64,000 nt of DNA from Rhodobacter capsulatus (GTDB lineage Bacteria > Pseudomonadota > Alphaproteobacteria > Rhodobacterales > Rhodobacteraceae), in NCBI RefSeq assembly GCF_003254295.1, contig NZ_QKZO01000006.1:18819-82818 (forward strand), written 5' to 3'. A program made the position numbers and the translations under genes. Position 1 is the stretch's first letter, and every line of letters starts with the position of its first letter. This document shows, in pieces, positions 4,747 through 19,026 of this stretch. A model generated the notes under the pieces. It was given only the letters and a program-made list of their open reading frames with translations, did no database searches and was not told where the DNA came from.

Positions 4747-5394
4747 TCACTTCTTCCCGGTCAGATCGTCGAACATGCCCCGGGCCTTGTCGACGCCCGA
4801 TTCGGCGCGGTCGGTCACATCCTCGATCGCATCGGCGACATCGCCCAGCACCGGGTCGATCGCATTGCGGCGGAACTGGATCCACAGCGCCCGCACCGTC
4901 AGGATCGCCATCGTGAGCAGCGTGAGGAAGATGATGTTGAACCACGGAACGATCGAGACCTCGGGCCCGTCCACGGGCTTGATCGAGACCGCATTCGGGA
5001 AGATCGAGAACAGCTCGCTGCGCCAGCCGTAATAGGTCATCACCCCCCATTTCGGCGCCTCGCCCGTCGACTGCAGATCGGCGGCCCGGGTCGACAGGTT
5101 CGCGGTGTCGAATTTGAAATAGGGCGGCCAGCCCCAGCCCGTGTCCTCGTTGCGATAGACGACCGGCTTGCCCTCGGGCGTCACCGCCGAGATGAACTGC
5201 ACGTCATAGCTCGTCTGCGTGCCGGACTTCACCTTCGGCCCCGACCAGAAGATGCTGGTCCAGCCGCTCGGATCCTGCCGTTCCTGATAGATATTGACCA
5301 CCCGCACGACTTCGTGCCGGGGCAGGGTGTAGTGCAGGAAGCTGCCGAAGATCACCGCGATCAGCAGCCAGAAAGTCCATTTGACGTATCCCAT
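4747..5394 (-). CDS. DUF1523 family membrane protein
   Basis: A protein of about 215 residues with an N-terminal membrane segment (YVKWTFWLLIAVIFGSFLHY) and a second near residues 148-170 (IVPWFNIIFLTLLTMAIL). The intervening region, probably periplasmic, contains the aromatic motif DTGWGWPPYFKFDT. The C terminus is charged and helical. The layout matches DUF1523, a family of unknown function in Rhodobacteraceae. GAGAGG precedes the ATG at 5394; a GTG at 5400 is the alternative. The 87-aa membrane protein lies just upstream on the same strand, so the two are probably co-transcribed. Confidence 0.8.
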   Translation of the reverse strand: MGYVKWTFWLLIAVIFGSFLHYTLPRHEVVRVVNIYQERQDPSGWTSIFWSGPKVKSGTQTSYDVQFISAVTPEGKPVVYRNEDTGWGWPPYFKFDTANLSTRAADLQSTGEAPKWGVMTYYGWRSELFSIFPNAVSIKPVDGPEVSIVPWFNIIFLTLLTMAILTVRALWIQFRRNAIDPVLGDVADAIEDVTDRAESGVDKARGMFDDLTGKK

Positions 5395-6379: not shown

Positions 6380-6985
6380 ATGGAGATTCCCCCCGGCACC
6401 GTCAACCCCGCCCGGCGCGACGCCGCGGCCCTCACCTTCCTTGCCAGCCGCCGCTCGCGGCCGCCGAAGCTGCTCGCCGCCCCGGCGCCCGACCGCGCCG
6501 CGCTGCGCGAGATCCTGACCATCGCCGCGCGCGTGCCCGATCACGGCAAGCTGGAACCCTGGCGCTTTGTCGTTCTGGAAAAGCCGGCGCTTGAACGGCT
6601 GGCGGACGAGGCCGCGGTTTTTGCCGCCACCCATCTTCTGCCCGAGGAGATCGCCGCCAAGGGCGTGTCGCAATTCGCGCAAAGCCCGCTTTGCGTCGCG
6701 CTGATCGCCGTGCCCCGGCCCACCGAGAAAGTGCCCGCGATCGAGCAGACCCTGTCGGTCGGCGCCGCGGGGATGCAGCTTCTGAATGCCGCGCTGGCGG
6801 CGGGCTGGGGGGCTTCCTGGCTGACCGGCTGGGTGGCGCATGATCTGCGCTTTGCCGCCCCGGCATTGGGTCTGGCCGAGGGCGAATGGGTCGCGGGGCT
6901 GATCCATATCGGCACCGAGACGGCGCCGCCGCCCGAACGCCCCCGCCCCGATCTGGACACTCTCCTCACATGGGTGAACGCATGA
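6380..6985 (+). CDS. Nitroreductase family protein (YdjA-like)
   Basis: An FMN-dependent nitroreductase-fold protein of 201 residues. FLASRRSRPPKLL binds the FMN phosphate side, and RVPDHGKLEPWRFVVLE is the hallmark of the single-domain YdjA/TdsD-like group. GAAGMQLLNAALAAGWGASWLTG forms the later FMN-contact region. Members reduce nitro compounds or other electrophiles with NAD(P)H; the natural substrate is unknown. The stop overlaps the start of the next gene in ATGA form, indicating translational coupling with the EI24-family gene. Confidence 0.9.
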   Translation: MEIPPGTVNPARRDAAALTFLASRRSRPPKLLAAPAPDRAALREILTIAARVPDHGKLEPWRFVVLEKPALERLADEAAVFAATHLLPEEIAAKGVSQFAQSPLCVALIAVPRPTEKVPAIEQTLSVGAAGMQLLNAALAAGWGASWLTGWVAHDLRFAAPALGLAEGEWVAGLIHIGTETAPPPERPRPDLDTLLTWVNA

Positions 6986-14507: not shown

Positions 14508-14726
14508 CACTCTCCCCTTTCCCGGGCTTGTCGTATCGACGCCCGATCAACCGCGAAGGCCGGGCAAAGTCAAGCCACCCCGCCCGCGGCCGCGGTCAAA
14601 TCCGTCTGCCGCGCATGGAATGACGCTTGCGCCGCGCCGTGACCTGACTATAACCCCCATCAATTTGCGCACCGGACCCCCACGGCCCGGTGCCTCTTGC
14701 CGCGCCATGCCATGAAGGGGTCCCCC

Positions 14727-18059
<3,333 letters not shown>

Positions 18060-18082
18060 CCTATCCATATTTTAACGAGAAG

Positions 18083-18110
18083 AATAAGGCGCCCCAACGG
18101 GCGCCTTATT
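18083..18110. terminator. Bidirectional hairpin terminator after carB
   Basis: AATAAGGCGCCC (18083-18094), loop CAAC, GGGCGCCTTATT (18099-18110): a perfect 12-bp stem with A/T at its base on both sides. It closes carB and marks the left edge of the AT-rich spacer. Confidence 0.92.
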
Positions 18111-18143
18111 GATTTGATCGCGATTTGTTCGCGGCAAAGCAAG

Positions 18144-18214
18144 TTATCCACATGAACAAATGAGAGAATTTCTTGAAATCATGTATAATATCAGTTGATA
18201 TCCACAATATATTG
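18144..18214. promoter_or_regulatory. AT-rich segment with DnaA-box-like sites and palindromes
   Basis: The 451-bp spacer 18060-18510 contains no convincing gene of normal length. It has an exact TTATCCACA (18144-18152) and a one-mismatch ATATCCACA (18198-18206). The palindromic stretches are ATTTCTTGAAAT (18168-18179), ATATCAGTTGATAT (18188-18201) and CAATATATTG (18205-18214). TATAAT occurs at 18184-18189, without a good -35 at standard spacing. The composition is clearly lower in GC than the flanking genes. Function is unknown; it could bind regulators of a transcript running rightward. Confidence 0.5.
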
Positions 18215-18382
18215 GCCTAGAATCAACATAGACGCGGCTTGGTGCGAAACGCGCCATATATGGTTCCGACTGGACTCGCTCGCGGATTCCCCTTATCGTT
18301 AACAGTGTCGGGCAGCCTGCCTGATTCTGTGATATCGAAATCGTGGGAGGTTGCCCCTAAGCAGGACCGTGAATCAAAAAGA

Positions 18383-18405
18383 CCGACCATAGGGTCGGCC
18401 TTCTC
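18383..18405 (+). terminator. Terminator-like hairpin inside the AT-rich spacer
   Basis: CCGACC (18383-18388), loop ATAG, GGTCGG (18393-18398), then CCTTCTC, preceded by a run of A. It could end a short transcript starting near the TATAAT at 18184, or attenuate the small genes downstream. Confidence 0.45.
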
Positions 18406-18414
18406 GAAAACAAA

Positions 18415-18472
18415 AGCGGACGAAACCGCCATGAGTCTCTGGTTGCGCTTTGTTTCTAAGCCTTCGTCCGCT
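18415..18472 (+). repeat. Inverted repeat in the leader of the small gene pair
   Basis: AGCGGACGAA (18415-18424) and TTCGTCCGCT (18463-18472) are perfect 10-bp arms enclosing 38 bases, 38 bp upstream of the first small gene. The long loop suggests a structured mRNA leader or a site of past rearrangement rather than a simple terminator. Confidence 0.6.
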
Positions 18473-18510
18473 CCAATGCAATCAATTCCTCAAGCTAAGG
18501 AGCGAGGAAA

Positions 18511-18726
18511 ATGGCGAACTATTATCTCAACACGAACCAGCAGCCCAATGGGGACTATGAGGTTCATACTGGCAGCTGTCTGTGGCTCCCTGCTCAAAGC
18601 AATCGGGAGTATTTGGGGGACTTCTCTCACTGCAGTTATGCGATATCCGAGGCCAAGCGGCGTCATCCGAGCTGGAATCGCATCAATGGCTGCAAACATT
18701 GCTGCCCCGGCTGTCATGTGAGCTGA
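18511..18726 (+). CDS. Small Cys-rich protein, unknown function
   Basis: A 71-residue protein beginning MANYYLNTNQQPNGDYEVHT. Cysteines occur at about positions 23 and 41, and a C-terminal cluster GCKHCCPGCH could bind metal or form disulfides. NREYLGDFSHCSYAISEAKR forms the centre. It has no signal peptide. From memory, related small proteins occur in scattered bacteria next to a partner like the downstream gene, but I cannot verify this here. GGAG in AAGGAGCGAGGAAA precedes the ATG. Codon choice is less GC-biased than neighbours, suggesting transfer. The partner gene starts ten bases after the stop. Confidence 0.8.
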   Translation: MANYYLNTNQQPNGDYEVHTGSCLWLPAQSNREYLGDFSHCSYAISEAKRRHPSWNRINGCKHCCPGCHVS

Positions 18727-18736
18727 GAGGACCGCA

Positions 18737-18910
18737 ATGGCGACCAATCCCCCGAAAGGTGACAATCACCGTAACGGTGCCGTCAAGGATCGTTCTCAAA
18801 CCCAGACTCCTTCTGGACACTGGGTCAAGCGCGACACCGAAACCGGCCGGTTCCTGGACGTCAAAACCTCTGACAAGACGCCTTTCAAGGGCGTCCGCAA
18901 GGAGAAGTGA
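18737..18910 (+). CDS. Small basic protein, partner of the Cys-rich ORF
   Basis: A 57-residue, strongly charged protein. It starts MATNPPKGDNHRNGAVKDRS, continues SGHWVKRDTETGRF and ends FKGVRKEK. It looks soluble, Gly/Lys/Arg-rich and possibly nucleic-acid binding or disordered; no catalytic motif is visible. GAGAGG lies six bases before the ATG, and the upstream small gene ends ten bases earlier, so the two are co-transcribed and probably act together. A terminator follows the stop by six bases, making a compact two-gene unit. The function is unknown. Confidence 0.75.
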   Translation: MATNPPKGDNHRNGAVKDRSQTQTPSGHWVKRDTETGRFLDVKTSDKTPFKGVRKEK

Positions 18911-18916
18911 TCCCTC

Positions 18917-18947
18917 GCGGCGCGTCACAAGCGCGCCGCATTTTCTC
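18917..18947 (+). terminator. Terminator after the small gene pair
   Basis: GCGGCGCG (18917-18924), a 7-base loop, CGCGCCGC (18932-18939), then ATTTTCTC. The perfect 8-bp stem with a T-rich tail is on the plus strand. Confidence 0.85.
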
Positions 18948-19026
18948 AAAGGAACGGCACCAACGGCACGCTGTCGCCGCAAGCCGCCAGAGCCAGCAGA
19001 AGTCCAAGCATCCAAACCTGTTTCAT
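18946..19026 (-). CDS. Very small putative lipoprotein, 26 aa
   Basis: The predicted peptide begins MKQVWMLGLLLALAAC, a textbook lipoprotein signal with lipobox LAAC and Cys at position 16. Only about eleven residues (CGDSVPLVPFL) would remain after processing. AAGGAGG is well placed before the ATG at 19026. Tiny lipoproteins of this sort are easily missed and often have no known role. It is read divergently from the oxidoreductase gene and toward the small gene pair. Confidence 0.6.
   Translation of the reverse strand: MKQVWMLGLLLALAACGDSVPLVPFL

Follow-up and report, generated by a model that had tools for sequence, protein, structure and literature searches.

Two small genes with a structured RNA leader behind carB of Rhodobacter capsulatus: an apparently mobile unit and candidate stress or defence cassette

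Genes A and B, two adjoining small genes behind carB in the 64,000-nucleotide stretch of DNA analysed here (the window), form a genuine and apparently mobile unit of the Rhodobacterales, built from two catalogued protein families. With moderate confidence we read this unit as a mobile accessory cassette for stress response or defence that is gated by an RNA leader and not by a Cap repressor. Beyond what a sequence-only reading of this DNA had noted, the analysis brought out the structured leader, the defence context of gene B and the 3' end of carB as a recurrent place. A-B could be a component of bacterial immunity that has gone unstudied: the family of B, PDC-S38, is tiny, strongly conserved and often first behind three DNA-damage-responsive immunity regulators, and neither studies of PDC-S38 nor a relevant paper using that name were found among the open-access papers searched. 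The Rhodobacterales unit presents this context stripped to RNA, A and B, which makes it a very small system for the study of function and control, and the carB slot supplies empty-site species for comparison.

The unit and its slot behind carB

The features of the region are as follows.

14697..18059, + strand: carB (carbamoyl-phosphate synthase large chain), an ORF whose 3' end appears to be a recurrent insertion place
18083..18110, no strand assigned: 12-bp perfect inverted repeat, probable carB terminator (repeat scan)
18144..18152, + strand: DnaA box TTATCCACA at the upstream edge of the unit (exact match)
18160..18223, + strand: two promoter-like sites, with second hexamers ending at 18189 and 18223
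18379..18402, + strand: leader hairpin H1 (fold; conserved in the R. maris and Thioclava loci)
18415..18472, + strand: leader hairpin H2 with the stem GCGGACGAA/TTCGTCCGC (fold and comparison by eye)
18469..18504, + strand: predicted alternative pairing of the H2 3' strand, CGCTCC at 18469-18474, with the gene A ribosome site, GGAGCG at 18499-18504 (permutation test)
18511..18726, + strand: gene A, 71 aa, phrog_4298, probable zinc-binding small protein (ORF, profile match, invariant residues, model)
18737..18910, + strand: gene B, 57 aa, basic, PDC-S38 / phrog_12550 (ORF, profile matches, model)
18917..18939, + strand: unit terminator (terminator scan)
18946..19026, - strand: convergent lipoprotein gene, 26 aa, the right border of the slot (sequence)

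The sequence-only reading had described two small co-directional genes ten bases apart, each with its own ribosome site, in a segment of low GC, and this description stands. The A-B gap is 10 nt, gene A is preceded by AAGGAGCGAGG and gene B by a weaker GAGAGG, and GC is 0.519 across the slot (18060-18946) against 0.57-0.71 in carB (200-bp windows, 16000 onward). The terminator is also there, with a 9-pair stem followed by ATTTTCT, so that it is good where it had been called perfect. The inverted repeat behind carB is listed on the - strand by the scan, and its + strand T-run is short. Promoter-like sites exceed the shuffled expectation weakly (2 observed; shuffle mean 0.7, sd 1.1). Upstream of the leader, TTATCCACA is the only exact DnaA box in the 64-kb window; it recurs 8 times within the 12.6 kb that lie upstream at 28 related loci (7 of which have it) and 14 times within the 420 kb containing those regions, a density ratio that is rough because some loci overlap. 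That DnaA boxes tie the unit to replication stress is a guess.

The 3' end of carB was located in all 18 same-genus genomes. In 14 of the remaining 17 carB regions of the genus a lipoprotein homologue closes the slot on its right side; it was not recognised in G004, G010 and G014. What lies between the borders varies widely: the slot is empty in four of the 18 genomes (G005, G008, G013, G017; 54-61 bp from carB to the lipoprotein gene), measures 190 bp in G006 and spans about 0.8-1.3 kb where it is occupied in other members of the genus. A and B together were found in G000 and G009, the two of 18 genomes that carry gene A, and G011 holds a small HTH gene with B. The remaining cargo comprises a RES-Xre pair (G012, L051) and a Fic gene (G015, L056), both of toxin-antitoxin type, a rhodanese gene (G007, L055) and an outer-membrane-protein-like gene in G002 (Pfam match under its cut-off), which ORFs in G001, G003 and G016 resemble by eye. 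The three closest relatives by carB identity (93-97%) lack A-B. Presence of the spacer across the genus, a check named beforehand, therefore came out as variable, and the earlier proposal that a compact unit had been transferred gains from the scarcity of A, from the four empty sites and from an excess of silent divergence over carB (see below).

Of the 25 A loci of the order-wide search, 9 (the window counted) have a carB homologue upstream, as do 6 of the 14 Rhodobacterales A-B loci among the best 80 of 574 B relatives, and also L113 and L326; loci of other genera are among them. Judged from these loci, the carB 3' end appears to be a recurrent place for the unit; a literature search for carB as an insertion hotspot gave nothing relevant among the papers listed. 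At two loci (L284, L285) we observed the order carB, winged-HTH-like gene, leader RNA, A and a gene C in place of B; gene C is basic, 47 aa long and matches nothing in Pfam or PADLOC.

Two coding genes under purifying selection

Substitution rates were taken against the copy of Rhodobacter maris JA276 (L078, taken as genome G009). Gene A gave a dS of 1.88 and a dN of 0.16 (dN/dS about 0.09) and gene B a dS of 1.54 and a dN of 0.076 (dN/dS about 0.05), each dS resting on only about 40 silent sites per gene, while the adjacent end of carB gave a dS of 0.49 and a dN of 0.045. These rates indicate that A and B are both coding and under purifying selection, and together with full-length profile matches the low dN/dS against R. 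maris places the two ORFs beyond chance. The higher silent divergence in the slot than in its flank fits separate acquisition. Decaying transferred DNA is ruled out by the dN/dS of A and B.

The products of genes A and B

Protein A matches phrog_4298 over its full length (1.1e-22) and protein B matches phrog_12550 likewise (1.6e-21), yet the two are separate phage families catalogued without function. B also matches PDC-S38 of PADLOC (PDLC05010, 4e-33, residues 1-57 of 57), a catalogue entry for a phage-defence candidate; here it is joined to A and the leader RNA, and no defence gene among those searched for adjoins it. The unit had been proposed as something undescribed, which holds for its functional role and not for its families, both being catalogued and B listed as a phage-defence candidate. 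Against Pfam and NCBIfam neither protein gave a significant match, and sequence searches found no solved relative of either.

Protein A ends in GCKHCCPGCHVS. Eleven positions are invariant among 53 aligned proteins, including H19, C23, C41, C61, C64, C68 and H69, and in a wider set of 61 proteins C41, C68 and H69 are conserved to at least 90%. A likely binds metal, as had been suggested earlier from its C-terminal Cys cluster. Its AlphaFold2 model has a pLDDT of 95.6 and returned no Foldseek match at E<=0.001 from either the PDB or BFVD; the best viral structural match, A0A6J5RLZ5 (BFVD; E 0.068, probability 0.95, TM 0.53), is an uncharacterised phage protein whose likeness to A lies over the 0.001 limit. 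The HxxxC ... CxxC spacing of Ada-type zinc-binding domains is presumably similar to that of A, but the PDB search with A was empty at E<=0.001. By our reading of the model, A also resembles YegP / DUF1508 (PF07411) in being small, strand-rich with a helix, and found near mobile and defence genes; YegP is reported to lie behind capKS in 57 of 443 cases (PMC13373217). The resemblance goes no further: none of the 53 A proteins matched the DUF1508 profile up to E 1, and a DUF1508 protein occurs in one of the 18 genus genomes.

Protein B had been described as very basic, and its net charge counted from the sequence is indeed about +6. Its model (pLDDT 76.5) has a disordered start and three strands within residues 19-42. 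Small and basic, B is probably a nucleic-acid-binding protein. A different small partner, A', precedes B at L079, L083, L114 and L024; the Cys/His layout of A' (EVHDLDNEQ..CQI...CxxC) resembles that of A, and its L083 copy matches nothing in Pfam or PADLOC.

Co-occurrence and distribution

Among 289 Alphaproteobacteria, A was found in 5 and B in 8 genomes, and both only in the window's own genome. Among 390 Rhodobacterales, A was found in 23 and B in 16 genomes (E<=0.001), 11 of the latter with a strong B (below 1e-20), one of which has an internal stop. A and a strong B occur together in 8 of the 390 genomes, against about 0.65 expected from 23 and 11, and in all eight they are adjacent, with A directly before B. 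In a further genome (G340) the two lie on separate contigs, A being diverged and the match to B weak (3.7e-4).

The B loci examined were the best 80 of 574 confirmed relatives, many of one architecture. Fifteen of these 80 contain A, 14 of them from Rhodobacteraceae with A-B gaps of 8-19 nt; the sole A+B locus outside the Rhodobacterales among the 80 is that of a Stenotrophomonas (L129), where B precedes A. No B was found within the fetched flanks (up to 4 kb) of 80 viral-contig A loci. The sequence-only reading had expected A and B to co-occur as neighbours; within the Rhodobacterales they do, but a pair spread across distant phyla did not emerge. Each family is nevertheless found on mobile DNA. 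A is carried by plasmids and by phages of Streptococcus, Staphylococcus and Erysipelothrix as well as filamentous Vibrio phages, and B by prophages, small plasmids and, as we read the annotation, a P4-like element of E. coli. Searched against E. coli DNA, the B gene of Vibrio gave no match, and that of Klebsiella matched in 4 of 5426 E. coli genomes.

Immune context of the B family

The neighbourhoods of B were searched with proteins taken from some of the B loci themselves, and all counts for loci with or without A refer to the best 80 of 574. In 51 of the 65 B loci without A, an upstream regulator resembling CapS, CapW or CapH is present, each kind at a nearly fixed distance: a CapS-like STAS-HTH protein in 28 (at about -680), a divergent WYL protein (CapW/BrxR-like) in 19 (at about -1040, and at -1216 and -1262 where A' intervenes) and a divergent CapH-like protein in 4 (at about -475). 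The WYL and CapH labels come from PADLOC, and the CapS label from the STAS-HTH look together with the description in PMC13373217. CBASS, Bub-like or restriction genes accompany 28 of the 65 loci (CD-NTase 18, SAVED 16, HsdR 14, E2/E1/JAB 8); regulator and immune gene are both present in 25, and at least one of them in 54. In four control sets searched with the same proteins, a regulator turned up at 1 of 61 viral B loci and at none of the 80 viral A loci, 17 genus carB regions and 80 unrelated viral contigs, and an immune gene in none of the sets. PADLOC, run on 10 neighbour proteins, returned Cyclase once (8.7e-146), capH once and WYL twice, two weak SoFic/CARF matches and nothing for the other four. 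In plasmid records B adjoins CBASS, restriction or TIR/SIR2 genes and also a WYL gene, and in E. coli H99 the order is WYL - B.

CapK/CapS, CapW and CapH/CapP are reported to govern adjacent immune operons upon DNA damage (PMC13373217). Operons under CapK/CapS, CapW/BrxR and CapH/CapP are the subject of PMC13373217, PMC9122588 and PMC9122601, whose available parts make no mention of a B-like gene; at the 51 loci counted above, B is the first small gene after the regulator. The A-B units differ from these operons in that the regulators are absent and many have an RNA leader: none of the 15 A-B loci holds the same regulators or immune effectors, although the Stenotrophomonas locus carries a CapP-like gene. 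Since 14 of these 15 loci are from Rhodobacterales, the absence of regulators amounts to that of one lineage, and since no searched defence gene lies at an A-B locus, only B, through its neighbours in other bacteria, connects the unit with defence. The position of the B family behind immune regulators makes a role in stress or defence the best guess.

A conserved, structured leader RNA

Conservation of the leader upstream of gene A equals that of genes A and B. Identity to R. maris is 0.72-0.85 in 40-column windows starting at 18379-18498, 0.53-0.60 in those starting at 18220-18340 and 0.42-0.75 further upstream, compared with 0.65-0.85 in the genes. The window leader folds with a z-score of -1.94 (10 of 200 shuffles fold as well), that of R. 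maris with -2.60, and 11 leaders range from -1.92 to -5.58. Most of the 14 Rhodobacterales A-B loci among the best 80 of 574 B relatives have a folded leader; some A-B units (L089, L286, L304) seemingly lack one, as judged by eye. Both sides of the H2 stem changed together in R. maris (L078) and, partly as G-U, in L127, also by eye.

The window leader belongs to one sequence class with those of R. maris and Thioclava, and the structure of this class comes from a comparison by eye of three loci, the window and two relatives. Another class (class III) comprises ten aligned related leaders, from nine A-B loci and a locus with A alone (L295). Its structure comprises three elements (H1, helix b/b' and helix a/a'). 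In it 88.5% of cells are paired, compared with 31.5-50% when it is slid along the alignment, and both sides changed in 15 of 24 pairs. On four of five measures 0 of 500 shuffles, which ignore the relatedness of the leaders, reached the observed value; the fifth, the number of pair types, was reached by 244 of 500. RNAalifold agrees for H1, for b/b' and for one more hairpin. A strict pseudoknot, with helix a interleaved with helix b, is possible, and the comparison tests it weakly because helix a is nearly invariant, with both sides changed in 1 of its 5 pairs.

Searched over 198 genomes of the family, the class III model found 8 at E<=0.001, five of them at 5e-8 or better; it does not detect the window's own leader. 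Two of the five best matches are identical to training leaders and three are new: behind the RNA, L326 (76 bits) has A alone, L327 (56.6 bits) a GIY-YIG-like ORF that lacks a clear start and L328 (42.6 bits) an unrelated ORF of 108 aa.

The 3' strand of H2 also fits the ribosome site of the downstream gene. Across 14 loci of classes I and III, pairing with the own ribosome-site region averages -12.8 kcal/mol, against -10.4 for permuted partners (8 of 10000 as strong, with relatedness among loci left in place by the permutation) and -8.1 for shuffled ribosome sites (0 of 500). Class III alone gave 77 of 10000 in the ribosome-site permutation, and nine other leaders showed no own-locus preference (5032 of 10000 permuted; 14 of 500 with a shuffled site). 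When the whole sequence is folded, both states leave the ribosome site mostly paired. Taken together, the comparisons show a conserved leader fold with compensatory changes in relatives and a 3' strand that matches the ribosome site, and a structured leader makes control at the RNA level likely.

The window leader had no Rfam match at the gathering score. At a lax limit, the class I/HTH and six class III loci gave nothing above thresholds; two weak matches, far below gathering scores, lie on the other strand. A 14-base pattern scan for the class III RNA in viral contigs gave chance-like matches among those listed. In the 80 listed viral loci, the class III model gave one match at E<=0.01, a weak one in L397 at 6585-6701 (23.1 bits, E 0.0012), away from the pattern. 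Upstream of the leader at L091, L095, L138 and L141, two TTGAC-type promoter motifs lie some 80 nt apart, the first overlapping a CACCA...GGTG-like repeat that may be an operator (by eye).

Proposed mechanism and alternative explanations

In the reading that we favour, promoter region, structured leader RNA, A, B and terminator would form a horizontally exchanged cassette of about 0.8 kb, seated in the permissive slot that separates carB from the convergent lipoprotein gene. Elsewhere, PDC-S38 would be an early product when CBASS, Bub-like and restriction operons switch on upon DNA damage or infection; in the Rhodobacterales units the transcriptional repressor would be gone and control shifted to RNA. 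Helix H2 could be closed, or its 3' strand could pair with the gene A ribosome site, in which case A would be held off, and B too by coupling. A would be a compact zinc-binding protein, and A and B would most likely act jointly on nucleic acid during infection or replication stress; feedback of B or A on the leader is possible. We hold a bolder version tentatively, and with more doubt than trust: a bistable RNA leader would have replaced the DNA-damage repressors of PDC-S38 in the Rhodobacterales, giving a regulator-free immune cassette of <0.9 kb that is swapped at the carB slot, with the same RNA gating other small cargo. If true, this would be a new kind of immune control.

A and B could instead be counter-defence or superinfection genes of phages and plasmids, the carB unit being a stranded or domesticated copy. 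Their distribution agrees with this, A being carried by phages and plasmids and B by prophages, small plasmids and a P4-like element, and defence is hard to separate from counter-defence by sequence because phages carry defence genes too. We nevertheless consider this unlikely, as chromosomal B often stands directly behind immune-operon regulators, a better fit to a defence gene. Improbable, too, is a toxin-antitoxin or addiction module, formed by A-B or by leader RNA and A-B, with B or the RNA as antitoxin, that holds the slot and travels by itself. Such a module would be in keeping with two tiny adjoining genes closed by a terminator, with their patchy distribution, with the stable structured RNA alongside them, and with the Fic and RES-Xre genes in the same slot of sister genomes. 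A and B are, however, apart in phages and in most other genomes examined, so that neither needs the other; outside the Rhodobacterales no regular pairing of this kind was seen, the two being mostly apart. Nor does a fixed pair agree with the variety of genes beside A, B or the RNA, which include a small HTH gene, A', gene C and ORFs that are GIY-YIG-like or of other kinds.

The class III RNA before A alone, a GIY-YIG-like ORF and a 108-aa ORF might mark the leader as an independent small RNA, or as the centre of a mobile cassette, with A-B as interchangeable passengers. We regard this as very unlikely: the fit between the 3' strand and the downstream gene's ribosome site speaks for a leader that acts in cis, and the cases with other cargo are the two lower-scoring matches (L327, L328). 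Least credible of all, and likewise very unlikely, is an ordinary regulatory or metabolic appendix of carB that serves pyrimidine or arginine control or metal homeostasis and not defence. It would explain why carB precedes A at the nine order-wide loci and at L326, and the metal-binding look of A would suit it, but a terminator-like repeat separates carB from the unit, most members of the genus lack the unit, the same slot holds unrelated cargo, and other copies have no carB inside the fetched 1.5 kb. The favoured reading, an RNA-gated stress or defence cassette, accommodates this exchange of cargo at the slot.

Diverged relatives of gene A

At nine A loci of the Rhodobacterales search the gene has the look of a diverged paralogue of A. 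Eight of these (L299, L300, L302, L303, L305-L308) are followed directly by what we read as xseA (exonuclease VII), and some are flanked on the opposite side by an apparent purD; the xseA-linked paralogue is perhaps a domesticated core gene tied to single-strand DNA metabolism. One viral contig (L215) carries two A genes that stand in tandem and have diverged from each other. In an IncF plasmid of E. coli (L454), an A gene is preceded by the gene (4766-4936) of a 56-aa protein, which we take to resemble YjzC.
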